Under the pieces are notes generated by a model. That model searched no databases and was not told the origin of the DNA. It worked only from the letters and a program-made list of their open reading frames with translations. Shown here piece by piece: positions 4,853 to 17,398 of a DNA stretch of 17,924 nucleotides (position 1 is the first letter of the stretch; each line of letters starts with the position of its first letter). This stretch comes from Thermoplasmata archaeon (GTDB lineage: Archaea > Thermoplasmatota > Thermoplasmata > Lutacidiplasmatales > UBA184): positions 1 through 17,924 of the forward strand of contig JASHUV010000125.1 in NCBI GenBank assembly GCA_030039825.1, given 5' to 3'. The translations under genes and the position numbers were made by a program.

Positions 4853-5908
4853 TCAGAACCGGCGGGCCGCCGCGCCGCGGGCGAGCCACTCGAGCAAGGT
4901 CCGGTACGGGCCGTCCGGGAGCGGCTCGAGCGCGCGCACCGCCCGTTCCGCCCACCCCTCGGCGGCCTCCGCCACCGCGGTGGCGGCGTCGGTCGTGTCG
5001 GTCAGGGCGCGGAGACGGAAGAGATCGCTCGGCTGCTTCCGCCTCAGCCCGAAGAGACGCTCGAACTCCTCCCGCTCCGTCCCGCCCAGGCGGGCGTGGG
5101 CCTCGAGCGAGAGGAGGGTGGGGTTCCCCTCCCGGAGGTCGGTGTACCTCGGCTTCCCGAGGAGGTCCGGGTCGCCGTACACGTCGAGGAGGTCGTCCCG
5201 GATCTGGAAGGCGATGCCGAGCGAGCGGCCGTACTCCTCGCACGCGGCCACGGAGGCGGCCGGCGCCTCGACGATCTCCGCCACGGAGGCGAGGGCCGCC
5301 GCGACGATCGCCGCCGTCTTGCGCTCGATGACGCGGAAGTAGTGGTCGCGCCCGCTCGTCAGGTCGAAGCGCCCGGCGTCCTGGAGGACCTCGCCCTCGA
5401 CGAGGTCCGCGCACGACTCGCCGCAGCGCAGGATGATCGACCGGGGGTACTCCGCGGCGAGCTCGAAGGCCCGGACGAAGAGGTAGTCCCCCGTGACGAT
5501 CGCCGAGGGCAGGCCGAAGGCCCGCGGCACGGACGGGCGGCCCCGCCGGAGCTCGGCGTGGTCGATGACGTCGTCGTGGACGAGCGTCGCGGTGTGGATC
5601 AGCTGGAAGGCGGCCGCGAGGGCCCCGATCCGGCCCGTCGAGGGGAGGCCGAGCGCGCGGGCCGTCGCCGCCATCAGGAGCGGACGCACGCGCTTGCCGC
5701 CCGCGCTGACGGCGTAGCCGGCCGCCTCGGTGAGCCTCGGGTAGTTCGACTGGAGGACCTTCTGGATGCGCTGGTCGATCTCGCCGAGGTCGCTCGTGAG
5801 GACCGGCAGGAGCTCGACGAGGGATTCCGGAGCCCCGGCCCCGAGCGTGCGGCTGACGATCGCGGCGAGGGAGGGCTCCCGCGGCACGGCGGACGGTCCG
5901 GCGCTCAC
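4853..5908 (-). CDS. Trans-polyprenyl diphosphate synthase
   Basis: A 351-aa all-trans isoprenyl diphosphate synthase that elongates allylic diphosphates with isopentenyl diphosphate. Both aspartate-rich motifs are present: DDVID (112-116, after QLIHTATLVH) and DDLLD (238-242, after AFQIR). The N-terminal GGKRVRPLL block supplies substrate-binding Lys and Arg. The fifth residue before the first motif is Ala 107. Families making FPP or GGPP usually have a bulky aromatic there, and the LIHTATLVHDD wording resembles long-chain hexaprenyl to octaprenyl synthases. This hints at a quinone side chain, although GGPP for archaeal lipids cannot be excluded. The GTG start forms a GTGA overlap with the stop of the upstream reductase gene. 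A longer frame reaching 6079 would run deep into that gene and is rejected. Confidence 0.92.
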   Translation of the reverse strand: MSAGPSAVPREPSLAAIVSRTLGAGAPESLVELLPVLTSDLGEIDQRIQKVLQSNYPRLTEAAGYAVSAGGKRVRPLLMAATARALGLPSTGRIGALAAAFQLIHTATLVHDDVIDHAELRRGRPSVPRAFGLPSAIVTGDYLFVRAFELAAEYPRSIILRCGESCADLVEGEVLQDAGRFDLTSGRDHYFRVIERKTAAIVAAALASVAEIVEAPAASVAACEEYGRSLGIAFQIRDDLLDVYGDPDLLGKPRYTDLREGNPTLLSLEAHARLGGTEREEFERLFGLRRKQPSDLFRLRALTDTTDAATAVAEAAEGWAERAVRALEPLPDGPYRTLLEWLARGAAARRF

Positions 5909-7014
5909 GACGCGCCTCCGAGGCGCGAGGGCCAGCGCATCCGCATCATGGCGTCGAGACCGGACGGCCCGATATAGCGCATTCCGAGCGCCAGGAGCAG
6001 GTCGCTCGCGGCGAACCGGTCGGCGAACCGCTTCAGGCGATGCCCCCGGGCGAGCGGTCCGGCGAGGTGGCGGCGCCACGCGTCATCATAGGAGCCAAGG
6101 GGGGTTCCGTCCCGGACGTGGGCGGCCGCCGCGACGCCCGCATCGTACCCCGAGAGCATCGCGGTCGGGATCCCTCCGCCGTTCGTCGCCATGACGGCGT
6201 TGGCGGCGTCGCCCGCGAAGATCGACCGGCCCGCGACCAGCGAGGCTGGCGGGGGGCCGATGGGAACCCACCACCTCGTCCGGTCGACCGCCGTCCCGAG
6301 CCCCTCCGACGCGAGGAAGCGGTCGAGCAGGCGGCCGAGCGTGGCCCCCTCGGGGAGCGAGGTGACGCCGAGCCCGACGTTCGCCTCGCCCGCCTTCGGG
6401 ATGACCCAGGCGTAGCCGCCCGGGGCGACCGACCCGAAGAAGAGGGCGATCTCCGGGGGGAAGTCGCCCGGTAAGGTCGCCGTGATCATCCGGTAGAGGA
6501 CGCGGGACGGTCGGAACCCCGCCCCCCGGGCGACCGTCGAGAGCGGGCCGTCGGCCCCGATGATGACCTTCGCCTCGACCGACGTCCCGCCCGCGAGCTC
6601 GGCGCGGCCGTCCCGCACCCGCGTCACGCCGGCGGGGAAGCGGAGCTCGGCGCCGGCGCGCTCCGCCCGGCGGGCGAGGGCGAGGTCGAAGCGCCGCCGG
6701 GAGACGCTGACGCCCCTCAAGGGGAACCGGTACCGACGGCCCCGCGGGGCCACGCACGCCATCGTGGCCGTCTCCCGCAGCACGGTCTCGGCCGGGATCT
6801 CGTAGGCGGCCCTCAGGAGGTCCGGGTAGGGGATGATGTCGGCGAGCTCCTCGAGGGCGGGGAGGAACTCCCCGCACTGCACCGGGTGGCCGATCTCGCC
6901 CCGTTGGTCGACGAGGAGGGTGCGCGCCCCCGCGGCGGCGCTCGCCCGCGCGGCGAGGCTTCCCGCGGGTCCCGCCCCGACCACGAGGACGTCGACGCGC
7001 TCCGGTGCGCTCAC
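5905..7014 (-). CDS. Geranylgeranyl reductase family FAD-dependent oxidoreductase
   Basis: A 369-aa flavoprotein of the archaeal geranylgeranyl reductase family, which saturates prenyl chains in lipid precursors or quinone tails. The N-terminal Rossmann FAD motif is VVGAGPAGSLAA (11-22), followed by the family Cys in QCGEF (Cys 47). The middle shows IIGADGPLS (about 151-159) and the family signature GGYAWVIPKAGEANVGLG (199-216). The second FAD site is AGDAANAVMATNGGGIP (267-283). The C-terminal 60 residues are Arg/Leu-rich and probably helical, suiting a membrane-surface enzyme. The GTG start overlaps the nuoN TGA as GTGA, and its own TGA overlaps the next GTG in the same way. This places it firmly in the nuo operon. 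Whether its substrate is an archaeal ether lipid or a menaquinone tail is open. Confidence 0.92.
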   Translation of the reverse strand: MSAPERVDVLVVGAGPAGSLAARASAAAGARTLLVDQRGEIGHPVQCGEFLPALEELADIIPYPDLLRAAYEIPAETVLRETATMACVAPRGRRYRFPLRGVSVSRRRFDLALARRAERAGAELRFPAGVTRVRDGRAELAGGTSVEAKVIIGADGPLSTVARGAGFRPSRVLYRMITATLPGDFPPEIALFFGSVAPGGYAWVIPKAGEANVGLGVTSLPEGATLGRLLDRFLASEGLGTAVDRTRWWVPIGPPPASLVAGRSIFAGDAANAVMATNGGGIPTAMLSGYDAGVAAAAHVRDGTPLGSYDDAWRRHLAGPLARGHRLKRFADRFAASDLLLALGMRYIGPSGLDAMMRMRWPSRLGGAS

Positions 7015-8537
7015 GCCCCGATCCCGACGAAGTGCGAGGCGGCGGTCGAGATCCCGGAGAGGACCGGGCCCGGATAGATGCCGAGGCCCACGATCGCGAC
7101 CGCGGCCACGGCGATGACCGCGGACCGGGCGAGCCCGATCCGACCGGTGAGGGGCCCGGCGACCGGGCTCGTCGGGTCGGGGCGGTCGAGGAAGATCGCC
7201 TTCAGCACGCGGGCGTAGTAGAACACCGAGAGCGCGCTGTTGAGGAGTCCCGCGACGGCGAGCCAGACGTAGAAGCCCTGGGCCTCCACGGCCGCGCTGA
7301 ACAGGACGAACTTCGAGACGAAGCCGACGGTCAGGGGGACCCCGGCGAGCGAGAGGAGCATGAGGGCGAAGGCGACCGAGAGGGCCGGTCGCTTCGCCCC
7401 GAGCCCCTTCCAGTCCTCGATCAGGGGACCGACGCCGAGCCCGGCGACGGCGGCGACGACGAGGAAGGCGCCGGTCTTCATGAAGACGTGCGCGAAGACC
7501 TGGAACGCGGCGCCCGCGATCGCGGGGTAGGTCCCCACGGCGACGCCGATCAGCATGTAGCCGGCCTGGGAGATCGACGAATAGGCGAGCATCCTCTTCA
7601 TCTCCTTCTGGCGGAGCGCGAGCACGTTCCCGACGGTCATCGTCAGGACCGCGAGGATCCCGAGCGTCAGCTGGAGGCTCGCGCCGAACGTGGCCGGGAG
7701 CGCGTCCGGGGCGCTCCGGAGGAGCAGGATCGGTCCGAGGAAGACGAGGAAGAAGGCGAAGATGCCCATCTTCTTCGACCCGCCGGACAGGAACGCGGCG
7801 ACGTCGGTCGGCGCCCCGTCGTAGACGTCGACGGCCCAGGCGTGGAACGGCACCGCCGTGACCTTGAACCCGAGACCGGCGATCAGGAGGCCGTAACCGA
7901 TCTCGGCGAGGAGCGGGAAGCCGACGAACGCGACCCCGGGGCCGAGCGCGTAGAAGCTCGTCCCGCCGTACGCCGCGAAGAGGAGCGAAGCGCCGAAGAA
8001 GGAGAGCGCCGTCGAGAGCGCGCCGATGATGAAGAACTTCATCGCTGCCTCGAGCGAGCGCTCGTCGCGGCGCGGGTAGGCGACGAGGAGGTAGGTGGAG
8101 AGGCTCGTGACCTCGATCGCAAGGAGGAGGAAGATGAGGTCGGAGGCGACGGCCACGAGCATCATCCCGAGGGTCGCGATCAGGAGGAGGCCGAAGAACA
8201 CCGACGCGCCCTTCTCGTCGGAGGGGCGCGAGAGGCTCGCGACGGCCACGAAGAGTCCCGCGAGCAGGAAGGTGACCTGGAAGACGAAGCCGAGGCTCGT
8301 GAACGCGTAGAGGCTCGGCGCGAGGGGGAGGTCGACGGAGCCCGCCGGGACCGTCCGGATCGCCGCGAGGCCGCTCACCCCGAGGTCGGCGACGACGAGG
8401 AGGAGCGCACCCCCGAGGCTCAGCGCCGCGACGCCGCCGACGAGCTCGAGCCGCCGGCGGCCGAGGACGTCGAAGAGGAAGATGAGGAGCGCCCCGGCGA
8501 GGAGGAGGATCTCCGGGAGGAACTCCGCGAGCGACAC
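7011..8537 (-). CDS. nuoN: NADH dehydrogenase-like complex I subunit N
   Basis: A 508-aa antiporter-like proton channel of the complex I membrane arm, with about 14 hydrophobic helices. The charged axis is intact: Glu 142 in LAIEVTSLSTY (E. coli E133), Lys 225 in GLGFKVTAVPFHAW (K217), and Lys 255/256 in SGGSKKMG (K247). YDGAPTDVAAFLSGG is a NuoN hallmark that separates it from NuoL and NuoM. The GTG start has a GGGAGGG ribosome site, 15 nt after nuoM. Its stop is shared with the GTGA start of the reductase gene. Confidence 0.96.
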   Translation of the reverse strand: MSLAEFLPEILLLAGALLIFLFDVLGRRRLELVGGVAALSLGGALLLVVADLGVSGLAAIRTVPAGSVDLPLAPSLYAFTSLGFVFQVTFLLAGLFVAVASLSRPSDEKGASVFFGLLLIATLGMMLVAVASDLIFLLLAIEVTSLSTYLLVAYPRRDERSLEAAMKFFIIGALSTALSFFGASLLFAAYGGTSFYALGPGVAFVGFPLLAEIGYGLLIAGLGFKVTAVPFHAWAVDVYDGAPTDVAAFLSGGSKKMGIFAFFLVFLGPILLLRSAPDALPATFGASLQLTLGILAVLTMTVGNVLALRQKEMKRMLAYSSISQAGYMLIGVAVGTYPAIAGAAFQVFAHVFMKTGAFLVVAAVAGLGVGPLIEDWKGLGAKRPALSVAFALMLLSLAGVPLTVGFVSKFVLFSAAVEAQGFYVWLAVAGLLNSALSVFYYARVLKAIFLDRPDPTSPVAGPLTGRIGLARSAVIAVAAVAIVGLGIYPGPVLSGISTAASHFVGIGA

Positions 8538-8552: not shown

Positions 8553-10022
8553 CTACGGCCAGCCGCTGATCGGCGAGCTCACGATGACGTGGACGAGGAG
8601 GCCCGGTAGCACCCCGAAGATGATGGCGAGCCCGGCGAGGATCGCCATCCCGGCGAGCTCCACCCTCGGGAGGTCGTGGGCCGTCGGCGGGATCCCCTTC
8701 GGCGGGCCGAACAGGACGCGTTGCATCATCCAGAGGTAGAACGCCGCGGTGACCACGAGCAGGAGGAGCGGCACGACGACCCAGTAGCCGAGCTGGTCCC
8801 AGGTCGCGAGGAGCGCCGTGAACTCCGCCGGGAAGCTGATGAGCGCGGGAAGCCCGAGCGAGGCGAGGGCGCCGAGCATCACCATCGTGGCGAGCGCCGG
8901 GGTCCTCGGCGTGATCCCCCCGAGCGCGGAGACGTCGCGCGTCCCGAAGGTGTGGTGGACGCTCCCCGAGACCATGAACAGGAGGCCGCTCACGACCCCG
9001 TGGGCGAACATGAGGAGCACCGCGGCGGTGATCCCGAGCGAGGAGCCGACGGCGATCGCGAGGAGCACGATGCCCATGTGGTTGATCGACGAGTAGGCGA
9101 CCATCCGCTTCAGGTCGCGTTGGGCGAGGGCAACGAGCGCGCCCCAGATGATCGAGGTGAACGCGACGAGGTAGAGGAGCGGCGCGAGGTCGTGGGCCCC
9201 CGTCGGCAAGAGCTCGACGGCCCACCGGATGAGACCGTACCCTCCGAGCTTCAGGAGGAGACCGGCGAGCAGCACCGAGCCGCCGGTCGGGGCCTCGACG
9301 TGGGCGTCGGGGAGCCAGGTGTGGAACGGGACGATCGGGAACTTGACGCCGAAGCCGAAGAACATCCCGAGGAAGAGGACCACCTGGGTCGCGGGCATCA
9401 GGGTGCGCGCCGGCCCGTAGAGGCTGCCGAAGTCGAAGGAGGAGGCGCCCGAATAGAAGGCGAGCGCGAGCAGCGAGACGAGCATCACGATCGAGGCGAC
9501 GTGGGTGTAGACGAAGAACTTCAGGGCCGCGTACCGGCGGCGGGGCCCGCCCCAGTAGCCGATCATGAAGAACATCGGGATGAGCACGGCCTCCCAGAAC
9601 AGGAAGAACAGCAGGATGTCGAGCGCGACGAAGACCCCGAAGCAGCCGAGCCCGGTGAGGGCGACGAGCCCGAACCAGAGCGCCGGGCTCTTCGATTCGT
9701 TCCAGGAGTAAACGACCGTGGCGAGCTGAAGGAACGCCGTCAGGAGGACGAGGATGAGGCTGATCCCGTCGACCCCGACGGTGTAGTTGATGTGGAGCCA
9801 GGCGAGGGAGATCCACGGGTAGGTCTCGCTGTAATTGTACTGCGGGACCCCGCCGGCGCCGAAACCGGCCCACTGGGTGAAGTCGGCGATCATCAGGCCG
9901 ACCTCGGCGAGGAAGACGAGCGAGCCCGCCAGGGCCACGAACTTCGCGTACCGCCCCGAGAGGAACGTCAGGACGGCGGTGAGGAGCAGCGTGAGGAGCG
10001 TGAGCGAGAGGATGCCGACCAC
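8553..10022 (-). CDS. nuoM: NADH dehydrogenase-like complex I subunit M
   Basis: A 489-aa antiporter-like subunit forming the second proton channel of the membrane arm. The key residues sit in place: Glu 144 in LFWEAVLIPMFF (E. coli E144), Lys 227 in FGVKFPIVPFHTWLPDAH (K234), and Lys 258 in GLLLKLGGYGLIR (K265). The phrase LPDAHVEAPTGGSVLLAG is diagnostic for NuoM. AQRDLKRMVAYSSINHMG marks the helix 9-10 region. About 14 helices are expected. The GTG start lies one base after the nuoL stop, so translation is probably coupled. Confidence 0.97.
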   Translation of the reverse strand: MVGILSLTLLTLLLTAVLTFLSGRYAKFVALAGSLVFLAEVGLMIADFTQWAGFGAGGVPQYNYSETYPWISLAWLHINYTVGVDGISLILVLLTAFLQLATVVYSWNESKSPALWFGLVALTGLGCFGVFVALDILLFFLFWEAVLIPMFFMIGYWGGPRRRYAALKFFVYTHVASIVMLVSLLALAFYSGASSFDFGSLYGPARTLMPATQVVLFLGMFFGFGVKFPIVPFHTWLPDAHVEAPTGGSVLLAGLLLKLGGYGLIRWAVELLPTGAHDLAPLLYLVAFTSIIWGALVALAQRDLKRMVAYSSINHMGIVLLAIAVGSSLGITAAVLLMFAHGVVSGLLFMVSGSVHHTFGTRDVSALGGITPRTPALATMVMLGALASLGLPALISFPAEFTALLATWDQLGYWVVVPLLLLVVTAAFYLWMMQRVLFGPPKGIPPTAHDLPRVELAGMAILAGLAIIFGVLPGLLVHVIVSSPISGWP

Positions 10023-10023
10023 G

Positions 10024-12006
10024 CTAGCCGCCCCCCATCGATTGGACGATCGCCGGTCCCACGTACAGGATCAGGAGGAGCACCCCGACGAGCCCGGCGA
10101 CGACGTAGCCCGCGTAGTCGGAGACGATCCCGGTCTGGGCCCGCCGCAAGAGGTCGGAGCCCCGCGAGAACAGCTTCTCGAAGCCCCGGATCGTGCCGTC
10201 GATGACGTAGCGCTCGACGAAATCGGCGGAGCGCGCGACGGTGTAGACGGCGCGCCGGCCGATCCAGTCGTACCCGACCTTGAAGTAGTAGCGGTTGAGG
10301 AGGACCGTCCGCATCTGCGCGGCGATCCCGGTCGGTGCCGCCGCGATCCGCCCGTTCCCCCAGAGGGTGTAGGAGAGCGCGATCCCGCTCCCGGCGAGGC
10401 CGAGGGAGACCGCCGAGAGGCCGAGGTCGGTCGCCGTGTACGTCGGGGGGACCCCCGCGCCGGGGAGGAGCGAGGCGAACGCCGGGTCGAAGACGAAGAA
10501 GCCCGCCGCGATCGCGAATCCCGAGAGCACGATCAGCGGGACCCGCATGACCCACGGTCCCTCGTGGGCCGTCGGGAGCGACGCGTCGCGCGGGGCCGGA
10601 CCGCCGAAGGCGAGGAACCAGGCCCGGAAGATGTAGTAGGAGGTCAGGAAGACCGTCGCCAGGGCGAGCAGGAAGAACGGCCAGTACGCCGGATGGGCCT
10701 GGGCCGCCTGGAAGACGGAGCCCAGGATGTCGTCCTTCGAGAAGAAGCCGGCGAAGGGGAAGATCCCGGAGAGCGAGAGCGCGCCGACGAGGAAGGCGCC
10801 GGCGGTGAGCGGCATGGTGCGCCGCAGCCCGCCCATCTTGAACAGGTCCTGCGTGCCGACGGCGTGGATCACCGAGCCGGCGGCGAGGAAGAGGAGCGCC
10901 TTGAAGAAGGCGTGCGTGAAGAGATGGTACATCCCCACCATCGTGACGCCGGCCCCGACGGCGAGGACCATGTACCCGAGCTGGGAGATCGTCGAATAGG
11001 CGACGACCCGCTTGATGTCGGTGTTGACGACCGCCATCGTCGCCGCGAAGAAGCAGGTGATCCCTCCGATCGCGACGATGGCGAACTGGTCGTCGGGGGT
11101 GAAGCCGAGGAAGACCGAGGTGACGGCGAGGAGATAGACCCCCGCGGCGACCATCGTCGCGGCGTGGATGAGGGCGCTCACGGTCGTCGGCCCCTCCATC
11201 GCGTCGGGCAGCCAGACGTGCAGCGGGAACTGGGCGCTCTTCCCCGCGGCCCCGCCGAGGATCATGAGGCCGGCGACGGTGAGGAGCGGGGTGTTCGTCC
11301 CGACGAGGGGACCGAGGAAGGGCTGGGTCCCGTTCGCGAACTTGAAGCCGGACGCCGCCCAGCCGGCGCCCCCGCCGGCGGTCGCGTACGTCGCGAAATA
11401 GATGAAGATCCCGAGCAGGAAGAGGACGTCCCCGACGCGCGTGACGAGGAAGGCCTCCTTGGCGGCGCTCGCCGCGCTCGGCTTCTCGTAGTAGAAGCCG
11501 ATCAGGAAGTAGGAGCAGACACCGACGAGCTCCCAGAAGAGGAAGAACTCGAGGAGATTGTCGGCGAGGACGAGCCCCGTCATCGCCGTCAGGAACAGCG
11601 ACAGCTCCGCGTAGTAGCGCGGCAGCCCGTGGTCGTGGTGCATGTAGCCGATCGAGTAGAGCATGACGAGGAAGCCGACGATCGTCACGACGAGGAGCAT
11701 CAGCGCCGAGAGCGGGTCGACGAGGAAGCCGATCACGAGGCTCACGCCGTTCGGGAACGTCCCCGGGGAGCCGGGGACCGTGAGCCAGGTGTAGCTGACG
11801 TCCGTGTACTGCCCCGGCGAGAGCATCTCGGCCACGGCGACGAGGGTACCGACGACCATCGCCGCGCCGGAGAGGAGGACGGCGATCCAGCCGCCCCATT
11901 CGAGCCCCTTCAGCCGGTTCCCGAGGAATCCGACGAGCACGAAGGACAGGAACGTGAGCAGCGGGACGAGCCCGGCGTAGGCGAGGAGGGGGGTCAGCAC
12001 CGACAC
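10024..12006 (-). CDS. nuoL: NADH dehydrogenase-like complex I subunit L
   Basis: A 660-aa distal antiporter-like subunit. Glu 159 in FFLFWELVGVCSYFLIGFYY matches E. coli E144, and Lys 256 in AGKSAQFPLHVWLPDAMEGP matches K229. SALIHAATMVAAGVYL is the classic NuoL signature. The length, and a final hydrophobic helix (VAGLVGVLLLILYVG) after a long amphipathic stretch, show that the lateral helix and terminal anchor are present. The start is GTG with a GGGAG site in the 10-nt gap after nuoK. Loops around residues 60-90 and 208-240 are Gly/Pro/Thr-rich and should face the outer side. Confidence 0.97.
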   Translation of the reverse strand: MSVLTPLLAYAGLVPLLTFLSFVLVGFLGNRLKGLEWGGWIAVLLSGAAMVVGTLVAVAEMLSPGQYTDVSYTWLTVPGSPGTFPNGVSLVIGFLVDPLSALMLLVVTIVGFLVMLYSIGYMHHDHGLPRYYAELSLFLTAMTGLVLADNLLEFFLFWELVGVCSYFLIGFYYEKPSAASAAKEAFLVTRVGDVLFLLGIFIYFATYATAGGGAGWAASGFKFANGTQPFLGPLVGTNTPLLTVAGLMILGGAAGKSAQFPLHVWLPDAMEGPTTVSALIHAATMVAAGVYLLAVTSVFLGFTPDDQFAIVAIGGITCFFAATMAVVNTDIKRVVAYSTISQLGYMVLAVGAGVTMVGMYHLFTHAFFKALLFLAAGSVIHAVGTQDLFKMGGLRRTMPLTAGAFLVGALSLSGIFPFAGFFSKDDILGSVFQAAQAHPAYWPFFLLALATVFLTSYYIFRAWFLAFGGPAPRDASLPTAHEGPWVMRVPLIVLSGFAIAAGFFVFDPAFASLLPGAGVPPTYTATDLGLSAVSLGLAGSGIALSYTLWGNGRIAAAPTGIAAQMRTVLLNRYYFKVGYDWIGRRAVYTVARSADFVERYVIDGTIRGFEKLFSRGSDLLRRAQTGIVSDYAGYVVAGLVGVLLLILYVGPAIVQSMGGG

Positions 12007-12016
12007 GGGAGCTCCC

Positions 12017-12334
12017 TCACCGGCGCAACGCCGACGCCTCGGCGACGTTGATCGATCCGCGGAGGCGGTTCAGCCCGAGCACGATGGCGAGACCGACGGC
12101 GACCTCGGTGGCGGCGAGCCCGATGAGGACCACGGCGATCGCCTGCCCGGAGAGCGCCGAGGAGGAGCCGGAGAACGCCGCGAAGTAGACGAAGTTGAGG
12201 ACGGCGGCGTTGATCGCGATCTCCACCGAGATGAGGAGGAGGATGAAGTTGCGGCGGGTGAGGATCCCGAAGAGCCCGAGACCGAGGAGCGCCCCGGAGA
12301 GGGCGAGGAGGCCGGCGGGGGAGAAGGCGCTCAC
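12017..12334 (-). CDS. nuoK: NADH dehydrogenase-like complex I subunit K
   Basis: A 105-aa subunit with three membrane helices (about 7-24, 30-52 and 64-88) that forms part of the fourth proton pathway with NuoJ and NuoA. Two membrane glutamates are kept: Glu 38 in ISVEIAINAAVLNF (E. coli E36) and Glu 77 in GLAATEVAVGLAIV (E. coli E72). The GTG start overlaps the nuoJ stop as GTGA. The C-terminus after helix 3 is short and polar. Confidence 0.95.
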   Translation of the reverse strand: MSAFSPAGLLALSGALLGLGLFGILTRRNFILLLISVEIAINAAVLNFVYFAAFSGSSSALSGQAIAVVLIGLAATEVAVGLAIVLGLNRLRGSINVAEASALRR

Positions 12335-12819
12335 TCGCGGCCCTCCCGGACGAGGTAGATCGCCCCGGCGAGCGCGCTCAGCATCGCGAGGCCGAGGAGG
12401 AGGAGCCAGGGACCGTCCGCGTTGAAGAGGGCCTGGGAGAGCAGGGCCGGCGCGTAGGCGTGGACGGTGCCCTCGCCGGAGGGCAGCTCCTCCGCCCCGA
12501 CGACGACGACGGCGAGCACGAGGCCGGCGAGCAGGAGCGGGGCCGGGCCGATGCCCGTCACGGCCTCCCGGGCGAAGATCCGCTTGCGCGTGACCATCAC
12601 GCCGAAGAGGAGCAGGATCGTGACGGCCCCGGCGTACACGCCGAGCTCGAGCACCCCGAGGAACGGCGCGGCCAGGAGGAAGTAGAGCGCCGCGAGGTCG
12701 ACGAAGAAGAGCGCGATCCAGAGGATCGTGTGGACGAGCTCACGGACGAGCAGGGCGTTCGCCGCCGTGACGATGGCGACCGCCGCGATCACGAGGAACG
12801 CGAGTTCCTCGAGGATCAC
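12331..12819 (-). CDS. nuoJ: NADH dehydrogenase-like complex I subunit J
   Basis: A 162-aa membrane subunit with five predicted helices. Helix 3 carries LELGVYAGAVTILLLFGVMV, including the conserved Tyr 62 that belongs to the gating pi-bulge region. It is a single intact NuoJ, not split into J1 and J2 as in some archaea. I place the start at a GTG (12819-12817) because it forms a GTGA overlap with the nuoI stop, the pattern used repeatedly in this operon, and gives the usual short N-terminus before helix 1. A GTG eight codons upstream (12843) is possible but would extend 28 bases into nuoI. The loop between helices 4 and 5 (about 108-130) is Gly/Pro-rich and external. Confidence 0.93.
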   Translation of the reverse strand: MILEELAFLVIAAVAIVTAANALLVRELVHTILWIALFFVDLAALYFLLAAPFLGVLELGVYAGAVTILLLFGVMVTRKRIFAREAVTGIGPAPLLLAGLVLAVVVVGAEELPSGEGTVHAYAPALLSQALFNADGPWLLLLGLAMLSALAGAIYLVREGRE

Positions 12820-13610
12820 GGATGGGTCCCCCAGAAGAGGCACTCCTTCGGGCAGACGGAGATGCAGGTGCCGCAGCGCACGCAGTCGGAGTCGTTGACG
12901 ACCGGCTCCTTCCAGATCCGCCGGGGGAGCTTCTCACCGGGCTTCGCCGTCGGCTTGGGCGTGTCGACCATCGTGATGCAGTTCGTGGGGCAGTCCCGGG
13001 CGCAGGCGTTGCAGCCGATGCACAGCGGCGCGTCGAGGCGGATCGCGTCCTCGTTCTCCGGGCGCTCGACCCGGATCGGGTTCATCGGGAGCTTCCGCTC
13101 GAAGACCTCGTGGAGCTTCTGGGGGGAGAAGACCATCTCCGGCCGCCGTGAGACCGAGAGCTCGTAGCGGGTCGTCATCGTGAGGCACCCTTCCGGGCAG
13201 GCGTCGGAGCAGAACCCGCAGTAGCTGCACTTCCCGTAGTCGATCTGCGGGCACTTCTTCGGGTGCTTCGGGTCCCCGCCGGGGACCGTGACCATCTCGA
13301 TGCACAGGTCCGGGCAGGAGAACGCGCAGAGGTTGCAGGAGATGCACGTCGCGATGTTGAGGGCGTGGACGCCGCGGTAGTTGTCCCAGACCTCGCCGAT
13401 CCCGATCGGGTGCCCGCTCTCGACCCGAACCTGGTCGCGGAACTTCGGGTCCTCGAGGCGCTCGAACGGGTAGACGATCGTCGACGGGCGCACGAGGCTC
13501 TTCACGAACTGCCGGGCCGCCGTCGCCATCGGGCGGGCGACCCAGAGGACCGGGTTCGGACTCTCCTCCTCCTTCGGCTTCGCGCTCGCGGCCATCGTTC
13601 CGTTCCCCAC
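12816..13610 (-). CDS. nuoI: Complex I subunit I with four 4Fe-4S motifs
   Basis: A 264-aa iron-sulphur subunit of the peripheral arm. Canonical NuoI has two CxxCxxCxxxCP motifs (clusters N6a and N6b); here there are four. Motif 1 has Cys 89, 92, 95 and 99; motif 2 has 128, 131, 134 and 138; motif 3 has 197, 200, 203 and 207; motif 4 has 243, 246, 249 and 253. The first pair aligns with normal NuoI (CSYCGFCSDACPEG). The second pair is a C-terminal ferredoxin-like addition joined by a linker around 143-190. Every motif ends CPxxC, giving extra Cys at 103, 142, 211 and 257 where NuoI usually has Ala. The GTG start directly follows the nuoH TAG; an ATG at 13595 is an alternative. Without NuoEFG in the operon, the extra clusters may form the electron entry path. 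Confidence 0.95.
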   Translation of the reverse strand: MGNGTMAASAKPKEEESPNPVLWVARPMATAARQFVKSLVRPSTIVYPFERLEDPKFRDQVRVESGHPIGIGEVWDNYRGVHALNIATCISCNLCAFSCPDLCIEMVTVPGGDPKHPKKCPQIDYGKCSYCGFCSDACPEGCLTMTTRYELSVSRRPEMVFSPQKLHEVFERKLPMNPIRVERPENEDAIRLDAPLCIGCNACARDCPTNCITMVDTPKPTAKPGEKLPRRIWKEPVVNDSDCVRCGTCISVCPKECLFWGTHP

Positions 13611-14711
13611 CTAGCTCCCGATCCCCGGCACGCAACCGATCAGCGGGAGACACTTCACCACGACGAGCGCCGCGGCGAGCACGACCGAGGCGAGCGCGAG
13701 CGGCACCATCCTCAGCCATCCGACGCGCAACAGCTGGTCGGTCCGCACCCGGGGCAGCGAGGCCCGCACCCAGACGAAGACGCCGAAGACGAGGTAGGTC
13801 TTCACCATGAACCAGAAGATCCCGGCGAGCGGGAAGTTCGTGAGCGCCGACGGGACGTAGGTGGGGAGCGTCCACCCCCCGAGGAAGAGGAGGACGATGA
13901 GGATGCTCCCGATGAGCGCCCTCAGGTAGTCGGCGAGCATGAAGAAGGCGAAGAGCATCCCGCCGTACTCCGTGTTCCAACCCTCGACGAGCTCCGCCTC
14001 GGCCTCCGGGAGGTCGAAGGGGATGCGTTCCATCTCGGCGAGCATCCCGGCGACGAAGACGATGAGGGCGAGGACGAGCGGGATCGCGAACCAGTAGTTC
14101 TGCTGCTCCATGACGATCGTCGTCAGGTCGAAGCTCCCGGACACGACGACGACCGCGACGACCGCGATGAGGATCGGCACCTCGTAGGCGATCATCTGGG
14201 CGGCCGAGCGCATCCCGCCCATCAGGGAGTACTTGTTGTTCGAGGACCAGGCGCTGATGAAGATGAACAGCGGCGCGAAGGAGAAGATCACGAGGGCGAG
14301 AAGGAGGGAGAGCGGGAGCGAGCCGTTGTCCCAGCCCGTCGAGATCGGGAGGACCCCGAAGATGACGAGCGAGCTCACCATGTACGCCGTCGGGCCGGTG
14401 TAGAAGCCGAGCCGGTCGGCCTCGCTCGGCATGTAGGTGTTCTTCCGGAACAGCTTGAGCCCGTCGGCGAAGTTCTGGAGGAGCCCCGCGTAGCCGACGT
14501 GCATGGCGCCCCGCCGGTCCATGAAGCGGCCGAGGAGCTTCCGCTCGTACCAGATGAGCACGATCGTGTTGATCATGCTCGCCGCGAGGAGGATCGCGCC
14601 GAAGATCAGGTCCGCGAGGAGCGTGACGAGATAGCCCGGGACTCCCGGCACGAGGCTCGCGAGCGTCGTCGCGATCAGGGAGGCGACGCCGTAGAGGCTC
14701 TGGACCGACAC
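13611..14711 (-). CDS. nuoH: NADH dehydrogenase-like complex I subunit H
   Basis: A 366-aa membrane subunit that joins the membrane and peripheral arms and forms the quinone tunnel. Hallmarks are IWYERKLLGRFMDRRG (about 53-68), FRKNTYMPSEADR (88-100), SAWSSNNKYSLMGGMRSAAQ (153-172) and the acidic cytoplasmic loop EMERIPFDLPEAEAELVEGW (226-245). Glu 177 in AYEVP is the membrane glutamate of the E-channel. About eight helices are expected. The GTG start has a strong GGGGAGGGGAG ribosome site in the 18-nt gap after nuoD. Two Cys near the C-terminus (KCLPLIGC) are unusual but I see no motif in them. Confidence 0.97.
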   Translation of the reverse strand: MSVQSLYGVASLIATTLASLVPGVPGYLVTLLADLIFGAILLAASMINTIVLIWYERKLLGRFMDRRGAMHVGYAGLLQNFADGLKLFRKNTYMPSEADRLGFYTGPTAYMVSSLVIFGVLPISTGWDNGSLPLSLLLALVIFSFAPLFIFISAWSSNNKYSLMGGMRSAAQMIAYEVPILIAVVAVVVVSGSFDLTTIVMEQQNYWFAIPLVLALIVFVAGMLAEMERIPFDLPEAEAELVEGWNTEYGGMLFAFFMLADYLRALIGSILIVLLFLGGWTLPTYVPSALTNFPLAGIFWFMVKTYLVFGVFVWVRASLPRVRTDQLLRVGWLRMVPLALASVVLAAALVVVKCLPLIGCVPGIGS

Positions 14712-14729: not shown

Positions 14730-15875
14730 CTACCGGTCGACCTCGCCGACGCAGACGTCGACGGAGCCCATGATCGGCGGGATGTCGGCGACGTGGTAGC
14801 CGACGAGGTAGGACTTCGCCGCGCTGAGGTTGACGAAGACCGGCGAGCGGAACTTCACGCGGTAGGGGTGCTCGCCGCCCTCGTTGACGACATAGGCCGT
14901 CGCCTCGCCGTGCGGCTCCTCGATGGCGCTCAGGCCCACGCCCTTCGAGTAGTGGCGCTTCAGGAGGTAGCCCTCGTGGCCGATCGGCGCGTACGGCGCG
15001 CCGAGCCAGCGCGGCACGTTCGCCGCCATGACGGGACCGGGGTGGTGGTCGAGCCAGTCGACGACCTGGCGGATGATGCGGACCGACTGCCGCATCTCCT
15101 CCATCCGGACGAGGTAGCGGGCGGTGACGTCGGCGGTGTCGGCGAGCGCGATGTCGAACTCGAGGCGGTCGTAGGCGGCGTACGGGCGGTCCTTCCGGAG
15201 GTCGCGCTTCACGCCGGCCGCGCGGAGCATCGGTCCCGTGACCCCGTAGGTCACGCAGTCCTTCGCCTTCAGCACCCCGAGGTCGTCGCAGCGCGTGCGG
15301 AAGATCTGGGAGCCCAGGCAGAGCCGGTCGTACTCCGCGAAGCGGTCCATGAGCCAGTCCATCGTCTTGCGGATCCGGTCCGTCGTGCCGGGCGGGAGGT
15401 CGTTCCTCACCCCGCCGACGCGCATGTACTCGTAGGTGAGCCGACCGCCGGTGAAGCTCTGGAAGTGGTCGAGGAGGAGGTCCCGGTCCCGCATCCCGTA
15501 GAGGAAGGGGCTCATCAGCCCGAGGTCCTGGACGAACGCGGCGTACCACATGATGTGGGAGGCGAGCCGTTGCATCTCCTCGACGAGGACCCGGAGGTAG
15601 AGCGTCCGCTCCGGCGGCACGACGTGGAGGGCCTTCTCGGCCGCCTGGATGTACAGGTGCTCCCAGGCGATCCCCGCCACGTAGCAGGTCCGGTCCATGA
15701 GGGTGATGATCTCGTTGTAGTGGCGGTCCTCGCTGATCTTCTCGATCCCCCGGTGCAGGTAGCCCATCTCGGGATCGATGTCCCTCACGATCTCCCCGTC
15801 GATCTTGACGCGGAGGTTCCACAGGCCGTGCGTCATGGGGTGCTGCGGCCCCATGTTGATCCACATCTCAGACAC
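14730..15875 (-). CDS. nuoD: Complex I subunit D (49-kDa homologue)
   Basis: A 381-aa Q-module subunit descended from the [NiFe]-hydrogenase large subunit. The quinone headgroup residues are kept: His 16 in GPQHPMTHG, Tyr 65 in DRTCY and Asp 117 in VQDLGLMSP match bovine H59, Y108 and D160, with identical spacing of 49 and 52 residues. GYLHRGIEK (38-46) and the C-terminal GEVDR are also canonical. Cys 64 and Cys 375 (SVDVCVGEVDR) occupy sites that are usually Asp and Val in complex I but are nickel-binding Cys in hydrogenases; their partner Cys are missing. NuoD is separate from NuoC, unlike the fused NuoCD of many bacteria and haloarchaea. The GTG start overlaps nuoC by 8 nt and has GGAGGT 11 nt upstream; an ATG at 15866 is less well placed. 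Confidence 0.97.
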   Translation of the reverse strand: MSEMWINMGPQHPMTHGLWNLRVKIDGEIVRDIDPEMGYLHRGIEKISEDRHYNEIITLMDRTCYVAGIAWEHLYIQAAEKALHVVPPERTLYLRVLVEEMQRLASHIMWYAAFVQDLGLMSPFLYGMRDRDLLLDHFQSFTGGRLTYEYMRVGGVRNDLPPGTTDRIRKTMDWLMDRFAEYDRLCLGSQIFRTRCDDLGVLKAKDCVTYGVTGPMLRAAGVKRDLRKDRPYAAYDRLEFDIALADTADVTARYLVRMEEMRQSVRIIRQVVDWLDHHPGPVMAANVPRWLGAPYAPIGHEGYLLKRHYSKGVGLSAIEEPHGEATAYVVNEGGEHPYRVKFRSPVFVNLSAAKSYLVGYHVADIPPIMGSVDVCVGEVDR

Positions 15876-16344
15876 GGCGCGTCTTGACCTCCAGCTCCTC
15901 CGGCTCGTGGAGCTTGAACGACCTCAGGAGCGGGTGGAACGCATAGCCGTCCGGCATCAGGAGATGACGGAGGTCGGGGTGGTGGTCGAAGGTGATGTCG
16001 ACCATCTCCCACGCCTCACGCTCGTGCCAGTTCGCCGAGGGCCAGAGGGGTGTCGCGCTCTCGACGTGGGCGTCCTTGGCGTCGAGCCGCGTGGAGAGCA
16101 GGAGGTAGGCCTTCCTCTCGTCCGACCAGAGGAGGTAGACGACCTCCCGCTCGGCGACCCAGTCGATCCCCCCGACGAAGGAGAGATGCGCGAAGCCGAG
16201 GTCGTCGCGGACGGCCCGGAAGACCTCGAGCGCGTGCGACGGGGCGAACGTCACGCGCCCCAGGGTCCCGTCGAACGGCTCCACGGTGAGAACGGCGTCG
16301 GGGAGCTTCCCGCGGAGGAGCGCCCCGACCCCCTCCTCCGCCAT
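15868..16344 (-). CDS. nuoC: Complex I subunit C (30-kDa homologue)
   Basis: A 158-aa hydrophilic Q-module subunit that packs against NuoD. The family signature is present in the C-terminal half: WPSANWHEREAWEMVDITF (about 101-119), HHPDLRHLLMPDGY (121-134) and FHPLLRSF (136-143). The N-terminal half has the usual alpha/beta fold with FVGGIDWV. It carries no metal ligands, as expected. The ATG start is preceded by GAGGAGGG, in a 36-nt gap after nuoB that shows nothing else. The stop lies inside the nuoD start region. Confidence 0.95.
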   Translation of the reverse strand: MAEEGVGALLRGKLPDAVLTVEPFDGTLGRVTFAPSHALEVFRAVRDDLGFAHLSFVGGIDWVAEREVVYLLWSDERKAYLLLSTRLDAKDAHVESATPLWPSANWHEREAWEMVDITFDHHPDLRHLLMPDGYAFHPLLRSFKLHEPEELEVKTRRV

Positions 16345-16380: not shown

Positions 16381-16998
16381 CTATTCCCGGCGCTCCCGGA
16401 TGAGCTCCTCGAGCTTCAGGATCCCGTCGAGCAGCGCCTCCGGCCTCGGCGGGCAGCCGGCGATGTAGACGTCCACGGGAACGAGCTTGTCGACGCCCGG
16501 CACCACGGAGTACGCCGTCCGGAACGGGCCGCCCCCCGTCGCGCAGTTCCCCATCGCGATGACCCACTTCGGCTCGGGCATCTGCTCGTAGAGCGTGATG
16601 AGCTTGTGCGCGACCTTCCAGGTGACCGTCCCGTTCACGATCAGGAGGTCGCACTGTCGGGGCGAGGATCGAGGGACGACGCCGAAGCGCTCGGCGTCCC
16701 ATCGGGCCCCGAACGCGCTCGCGAACTCGATGGCGCAGCAGGCGAGCCCCCAGTGGAGCGGGAAGAGCGAGTTGCGTCCGGCCCAGTTGAAGACCGGCCG
16801 GATCACCTTGCCCTGACCCTGCTCGGCGAGGAGCGACAGGAGCGCCTCCTTCGCCGCGGGAATGAACTGCTGCGAGCGCAACCCCTCGATCTCCACGAAC
16901 GGGACGCCGGGCTCGGTGATCGCCGGCTCGGTCGGGCTCGGCGGGATCGCCGGGACGGCCGGAGCGGCGGCGACGACCGGCGTCGCCGGGGTGCTCAT
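16381..16998 (-). CDS. nuoB: Complex I subunit B (PSST homologue)
   Basis: A 205-aa subunit carrying the terminal cluster N2, which passes electrons to quinone. The four ligands are visible: tandem Cys 87 and 88 in [10 protein letters not shown], Cys 151 in [11 protein letters not shown] and Cys 182 in [21 protein letters not shown] follows, as in the family. The first 35 or so residues form an Ala/Pro/Val-rich low-complexity extension before the conserved core (about GLRSQQFIP). I choose the ATG at 16998 because it makes an ATGA overlap with the nuoA stop. A GTG three codons upstream (17007) is the alternative. Confidence 0.96.
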
Positions 16999-17366
16999 AC
17001 GACCCACCGGCGCTCACCGGAGAGCGCGTAGTAGATGCCCGCGAGCGCGAGGGCGGTGAATCCGAGCGCGATGAAGACCGGGTATTCCGCGGAATTGACG
17101 GTCCGGAAGGTGAGCGCCCAGAGGGCGAGGATGAAGCCCAAGATGTCGACGGCGACGAAGATGATCGCGAAGGTGTAATGCTGGGTCGGAAAGTCGATCT
17201 GCGCCTCCCCCTCGCTCTCCTGGCCGCACTCGTAGGTCGTCAGTCGGAGGTAGGAGCGCCTCGCCTTGGCGCCGAGCGTCCGGTTCGCGATCAGGGAGCC
17301 GATGCCGAAGACCGCCGCGATGGCCAGGAAGACGAGGAACGTCTCGATGTCCGCCGACGCCGCCAC
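16995..17366 (-). CDS. nuoA: NADH dehydrogenase-like complex I subunit A
   Basis: A 123-aa membrane subunit with three helices (about 8-28, 65-87 and 95-115). The long helix 1-2 loop holds [15 protein letters not shown] with the conserved Cys 47. In helix 2 the usual FDxE reads VDIL: Asp 74 is kept but the Glu is Leu 76, and the nearby Pro of PWA is Leu. I place the start at GTG 17366 because GGGGGGAGG lies 9 nt upstream. A GTG at 17375 would abut that ribosome site directly. This is the first gene of the operon, about 33 nt downstream of the predicted transcription start. Its TGA overlaps the nuoB ATG. Confidence 0.93.
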
Positions 17367-17398
17367 CGCTCCCACCCTCCCCCCACTACCTAGGAAGC

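Follow-up and report, generated by a model that had tools for sequence, protein, structure and literature searches.

A NuoI with four 4Fe-4S motifs in a complex I-like operon without NuoEFG, conserved in Lutacidiplasmatales and Methanomassiliicoccales

Many archaea and bacteria have complex I-like enzymes without NuoEFG, and for these the route of electron entry is still debated. In canonical complex I, NuoI (Nqo9) carries two clusters and NuoG lies next to cluster N6a. Two clusters are also found in NdhI of NDH-1, the NuoI of another known complex without the N-module has the canonical two motifs only, and we presume that the FpoI of Methanothrix likewise has two motifs. Strings of 4Fe-4S modules occur in the polyferredoxins FwdF and MvhB, which join enzymes and are subunits in their own right in assemblies of formylmethanofuran dehydrogenase and of hydrogenase.

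Several described systems, cited throughout from the parts of the papers available to us, work without an NADH-oxidising head or are reported to take electrons from ferredoxin. The cyanobacterial and chloroplast NDH-1 is complex I-like and has no NuoEFG; ferredoxin input has been described for cyanobacteria, with additional subunits aiding the delivery of electrons, and ferredoxin has also been proposed as the shuttle for the other complex without an N-module (PMC11238625). The Fpo complex of Methanomassiliicoccales has 11 subunits, FpoF and FpoO being missing (PMC4153887), and is described as ferredoxin-dependent and proton-pumping, with electrons passing to HdrD (PMC7374477, PMC7485788, PMC7886697). 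According to reviews, this headless complex of M. luminyensis oxidises reduced ferredoxin (PMC7374477; also PMC7886697), and the Fpo of Methanothrix is described as ferredoxin-dependent as well (PMC7374477). Finally, archaeal-type Nuo without EFG has been reported in all but one of the acid-mine Thermoplasmatales of one study (PMC3750248).

Here we compare with these systems a nuo operon from uncultured soil archaea, the Lutacidiplasmatales, whose order is described in PMC9287336. The window, by which we mean the whole stretch of 17,924 nucleotides analysed, is part of a contig (C210) from a 1.4-Mb metagenome bin that is 64% complete. Its minus strand carries eleven complete genes in the order nuoA-B-C-D-H-I-J-K-L-M-N: nuoA (16995-17375, PF00507), nuoB (16381-17007), nuoC (15868-16344), nuoD (14730-15875), nuoH (13611-14711), nuoI (12819-13610, stop codon at 12816-12818), nuoJ (12331-12843, PF00499), nuoK (12017-12334, PF00420), nuoL (10024-12006), nuoM (8553-10022) and nuoN (7011-8537), with nuoC, nuoH, nuoL, nuoM and nuoN assigned by profile matches. 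NuoB has cysteines at residues 90, 91, 155 and 185, which from the NuoB pattern we take to be N2-type ligands. NuoD has no match to the L1 or L2 cysteine motifs of [NiFe] enzymes, which sets the complex apart from the group 4 [NiFe] hydrogenases. An earlier note on this DNA, made from the sequence alone, had stated that the operon is without NuoE, NuoF and NuoG, and this holds: the window contains none of the three. Nor does the rest of the source genome contain a NuoF domain (PF01512), although at 64% completeness a distant input subunit may have been missed; the complex therefore does not qualify as a 14-subunit NADH:quinone oxidoreductase. All 13 operons that we viewed from the Methanomassiliicoccales families (f3, f6, f8 and f9, identified below) have these 11 genes in an identical arrangement.

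In the stretch adjoining nuoN lies a geranylgeranyl-reductase-like gene (5908-7014, minus strand, start codon not fixed), followed by a polyprenyl synthetase gene. A geranylgeranyl-reductase-like gene is also present downstream of nuoN in a distant genome of another order (G251, family f10; L275:3542-4534), and it is perhaps a conserved nuo neighbour tied to quinone or lipid saturation.

The earlier note gave no strand for nuoI, which lies on the minus strand and, read from its GTG, encodes 264 residues. An alternative ATG at 13593-13595, preceded by GGTGGGG, would give 259 residues, and is likely to be the true start since it fits the starts of several relatives better. With respect to the protein itself the earlier note had claimed four complete motifs and a second pair forming a C-terminal ferredoxin-like domain in the same chain, and both points proved correct. 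Four C..C..C...CP motifs begin exactly at Cys 89, 128, 197 and 243, and among 20,000 residue shuffles of the protein one motif appeared in 16 and two or more in none. Both halves match Pfam 4Fe-4S dicluster models. The subunit contains 4Fe-4S modules in series, which might form a continuous wire like that of a polyferredoxin. The canonical 2[4Fe-4S] domain (13173-13385, approximately residues 76-146, minus strand) contains the first two motifs (from Cys 89 and 128), whose clusters we name N6a and N6b by homology; a less conserved linker (13044-13172, approximately residues 147-189, minus strand) leads to the extra 2[4Fe-4S] ferredoxin domain, or C-domain (12819-13043, approximately residues 190-264, minus strand), which holds the other two (from Cys 197 and 243). 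As in canonical NuoI, the N-terminal domain is recognised by the NCBIfam model TIGR01971, scoring 115.9 bits against a cut-off of 113.05 over residues 76-166; unlike canonical NuoI, the protein has four motifs and there is no NuoG. All four motifs read on as CPxxC, placing further cysteines at residues 103, 142, 211 and 257, which are invariant in all 54 aligned archaeal rows and not so in the sequences of the methanogens.

The architecture is general among close relatives. The scan of species genomes covered the best 79 loci of 95 relatives, 70 of them archaeal (L002-L071) and nine bacterial. The archaeal loci are at least 71% identical to the window NuoI (one is a 42-residue end piece only), and most records are titled Thermoplasmata archaeon, others being Euryarchaeota archaeon (L002), 'bacterium' (L013) and Candidatus Lutacidiplasma silvani (L060). 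Among the matches listed, 68 of the 70 have four motifs; the remaining two, L070 with three and L071 with none, are matches that start at the edge of a contig or stored stretch. The nine bacterial loci among these matches are 30-36% identical, and in the reading frames that were counted every one of them has two motifs. When the window's family (f1) was considered as a whole, nuoI was matched at 1e-30 in 84 of 103 genomes and in 35 of the 36 of best quality, with no match in the other 19. Of 86 matches, 82 extend to residue 252 or beyond, thus covering the second motif pair, and the remaining four are truncated where their contigs end; one of the 82 (in G429) has an in-frame TGA.

In an alignment of 54 archaeal rows, made up of the window and 53 loci from the set of 70, the C-domain is almost as well conserved as the N-domain. 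All 16 ligand cysteines are invariant in the 54 rows, and mean pairwise identity is 92.3% in the N-domain, 87.6% in the C-domain, 71.3% in the linker (taken on residues 151-193 in window numbering) and 67.0% in the N-terminus. In all 52 copies read from f1, f3, f6, f8 and f9 the chain ends 20-21 residues past the first cysteine of motif 4, a constancy that suggests a fitted domain.

Some genomes depart from this picture. Two nuoI copies occur in single bins (G279, G497, and one bin with the loci L027 and L032), approximately 80-85% identical to the query, which reflects either duplication or bin contamination. A genome from the window's genus (G219) has a 290-aa ORF with NuoI-like and NuoB-like parts (L149:6153-7025 of G219:C66, minus strand), which adjoins NuoC/D-like and antiporter-like genes and belongs to a second complex in that genome. 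In the sister family f2 of the same order, G253 and G256 (93% and 95% complete) gave no NuoI match better than 2e-6, hinting that this complex I is absent from them.

Beyond the order, we sampled 292 genomes of the phylum, of which 261 had some match, many of these to other ferredoxin-like proteins; the NuoI ORF was read in a subset, counting a motif as C..C..C...C. All sampled genomes of five families have four motifs (f1, 14/14; f3, 26/26; f6, 8/8; f8, 3/3; f9, 1/1), as do the seven loci of f13 (six genomes, G176 twice) and the one of f29, in which the last motif closes with CK instead of CP. Two motifs were found in the nine copies read from f5 (28 genomes sampled), in both from f7, and in one each from f14, f22, f30, f36, f37 and f41. 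Loci with NuoI-like clusters that are differently arranged or incomplete were left out of the count (L116-L120, L132-L134, L136, L137, L139, L141, L142, L147 and L149). A 148-aa ORF in G034 was at one point considered a free ferredoxin; by eye it reads as NuoI/MbhN-like, and that assignment was dropped.

Two markers fix the identity of the main families. The methanogenesis gene mcrA (PF02249) occurs in 45 of 250 genomes of the class and is confined to f3, f6, f8 and f9, which are therefore Methanomassiliicoccales; 37 of their 38 motif-counted genomes are among the carriers, the exception being G192. G099, in f5, is Thermoplasma acidophilum, since its proteasome beta subunit is identical to 1pma_B over 181 residues, and its NuoI has two motifs. 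These two assignments also rule out f3 as a Thermoplasma-like family. Four-motif NuoI is thus present in Lutacidiplasmatales, in Methanomassiliicoccales (38 of 38 copies from the four families) and in a few further families, and not in Thermoplasma. Searching for homologues, as the earlier note had proposed, thus shows an architecture that is not peculiar to this lineage but fixed throughout a broader clade, Methanomassiliicoccales among its members.

Like the Lutacidiplasmatales complex, then, the headless Fpo of these methanogens combines four motifs in NuoI/FpoI with the reported lack of FpoF (PMC4153887, PMC7374477). The two differ in the f3 linker, which is approximately 14 residues longer, and presumably in the acceptor, because HdrD has been proposed for Methanomassiliicoccales (PMC7374477) whereas Lutacidiplasmatales are described as mostly aerobic (PMC9287336) and presumably use quinone. 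As to earlier descriptions, the main text of PMC9287336 nowhere names Nuo, ferredoxin or NADH, and the available part of a survey of archaeal fusions reports complex I fusions of subunits B, C and D, not of NuoI with ferredoxin (PMC11237513). The open-licence literature searched, in the parts available, does not mention a four-motif NuoI/FpoI (PMC9287336, PMC3750248, PMC11238625, PMC11237513, PMC4153887, PMC7374477, PMC7485788, PMC7886697, PMC10658910 and PMC6147122); an earlier mention in subscription papers is possible.

The extension goes further in another order of the same class. A member of it, G251 (L130, contig G251:C54), encodes a NuoI with six motifs, and 20 of the 21 genomes of the order gave a strong match (none in G343). 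Six motifs are present in seven of the 20 loci (L234-L253) and five in 12, one locus being cut. In the five-motif copies one site is degenerate, for example by replacement of Cys with His in L244, and the last motif of these three-pair proteins closes with CK or CR instead of CP. The extra domain can thus be extended again. The contig with the six-motif nuo genes also carries formate dehydrogenase alpha-like, MvhD/VhuD-like and HdrA-like genes (L274:636-6924 of G251:C54).

To place these forms on a tree we joined NuoB, C, D and H from 35 operons (LG+G4+F), with three bacterial outgroups. The tree placed all 23 operons with an extended NuoI in one group together with the two-motif f14 (UFBoot 100), and the eight two-motif operons of f5, f7, f22, f30, f36, f37 and f41 separately (UFBoot 100). 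The extended operons do not form a clade once f14 is set aside; f14 itself is weakly placed (73) and may, though this is unsure, have lost the extra domain. A tree built from the short domains brings the 26 C-domains together in one group (UFBoot 92). A single gain is therefore the simplest reading, with moderate evidence given the short alignments. The C-domain of f1 is 36.1% identical to other C-domains and 35.0% to the f1 N-domain, and such identities would be compatible with tandem duplication of the N-domain as well as with capture of another ferredoxin.

The best sequence matches of the C-domain are to FwdF and MvhB, to which the window protein is similar in having a string of 4Fe-4S modules, and from which it differs in that the string is fused to a complex I subunit. 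Of two AlphaFold2 models the first (A1, 56 rows; pLDDT 45.8, pTM 0.30) was set aside. The other, made for residues 60-264 from 20 rows (pLDDT 62.2, pTM 0.38), consists of two ferredoxin-like halves, most blocks of which have a pLDDT of 66-81, and a linker below 50, and is usable for the halves and not for their mutual placement. In a Foldseek search with this model, FwdF chains of formylmethanofuran dehydrogenase ranked highest, ahead of NuoI chains from complex I. At least one fifth of the VIA-align rows cover model residues 16-95 (the N-terminal half) only, and the three rows that span the whole model have an rmsd of 20-21 angstroms, so no arrangement of the halves is claimed.

The FpoF-type F420H2 subunit (PF04432) was found in none of 61 genomes of the window's family, compared with three of 14 controls including Methanosarcina acetivorans, so the complex lacks the hallmark of an F420H2 dehydrogenase (Fpo/Fqo). 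The NuoF-type domain PF01512 occurs in 54 of 250 class genomes, in f1 only in G101 (G101:C41:100702-101193) and in the methanogen families only in G428 of f9 (G428:C7:52351-52863), and also in five of the nine motif-counted, two-motif genomes of f5 (G128, G148, G180, G230 and G285). The 2-oxoacid:ferredoxin oxidoreductase domain PF01558 is present in 61 of 61 genomes of the window's family; as it is also present in 11 of the 14 controls, E. coli included, this common domain is weak evidence for a ferredoxin route. The closest studied complex does oxidise ferredoxin according to the reports on M. luminyensis, its four-motif NuoI being assigned by family. The docking or relay role proposed in the earlier note is supported to the extent that the genome setting fits a ferredoxin donor (PF01558 in every family genome sampled, PF04432 in none, no PF01512 in the source genome); electron entry at the extra domain is to be read as probable, not as the necessity that the earlier note made of it. 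With mean net charges of 0 in f1 and -5.6 in f13 the C-domain is not strikingly basic, and it gives no clear sign of an electrostatic docking patch.

The two motifs of T. acidophilum and of all nine f5 copies read, the Thermoplasmatales Nuo without EFG (PMC3750248) and the ferredoxin-dependent Fpo of Methanothrix imply that a missing EFG module is not by itself tied to four motifs and that the extra domain is probably not required for ferredoxin use as such. One alternative is that the additional clusters are off the main path, acting as a structural clamp or an electron store, with ferredoxin docking straight at N6a as it may in the two-motif relatives. Two motifs are indeed the rule in f5, and the 12 of 20 three-pair copies with a degenerate motif indicate that not every cluster is indispensable there; however, the eight extra ligand cysteines are invariant in all 54 aligned rows, and no uncut copy in the window's family (82 matches) lacks the C-domain, which makes this idea rather improbable. 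An artefact, be it a frameshift fusion, joined contigs or chance motifs, might be suspected of a single metagenome bin that is 64% complete, but the same architecture recurs in 68 of 70 loci among the matches listed, the other two being cut short, and in single-contig genomes of other families (for example G058 and G162). Together with the shuffles, in which two motifs never arose, this refutes the suspicion and leaves it a negligible chance.

A further option is that a dedicated enzyme, for example of the Hdr, formate dehydrogenase or 2-oxoacid oxidoreductase type, docks on the C-domain and hands over its electrons directly, without free ferredoxin. The polyferredoxins that provide the best sequence matches and, with FwdF, the best fold match speak for it, as do the FdhA-like and HdrA-like genes sharing a contig with nuo in G251, although that genome has the three-pair form, and the proposal that HdrD joins the Methanomassiliicoccales Fpo-like complex, although on the acceptor side (PMC7374477). 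Since no such partner gene lies beside nuo in the window and the M. luminyensis complex is reported to oxidise ferredoxin (PMC7374477), we consider a dedicated partner unlikely, if less so than clusters off the path. Our preferred explanation, to which we assign a probability of roughly 0.6, is that NuoEFG is replaced by a 2[4Fe-4S] ferredoxin domain, fused to the end of NuoI, on which reduced ferredoxin docks and which relays its electrons. Soluble ferredoxin, reduced by 2-oxoacid:ferredoxin oxidoreductases, would give its electrons to the C-domain at the free end of the peripheral arm; the two clusters there would pass them via N6a and N6b to N2 and on to a final acceptor, probably quinone in Lutacidiplasmatales and another acceptor in Methanomassiliicoccales, and this flow would drive proton pumping by the membrane arm. 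The domain would thus be a captive ferredoxin relay in a ferredoxin-oxidising complex I, a fused Fe-S domain in place of the additional subunits that aid delivery in NDH-1 (PMC11238625).

Throughout a large clade the C-domain is a genuine, conserved feature encoded within the nuo operon. More tentatively, and with the odds slightly against it, complex I input may have evolved within one phylum by ferredoxin modules added to NuoI, from two motifs in Thermoplasmataceae to four in Lutacidiplasmatales and Methanomassiliicoccales and up to six in the further order, so that a covalent polyferredoxin wire, instead of the NuoEFG or FpoF head, would be a third way of electron entry. The gradation from two to six motifs offers a natural series for structural and mutational work on electron entry. 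The four-motif form is predicted for the gut methanogens of Methanomassiliicoccales, among them M. luminyensis, which has been grown in pure culture (PMC5688252). One shared energy-converting machine links mostly aerobic soil archaea and methanogens.
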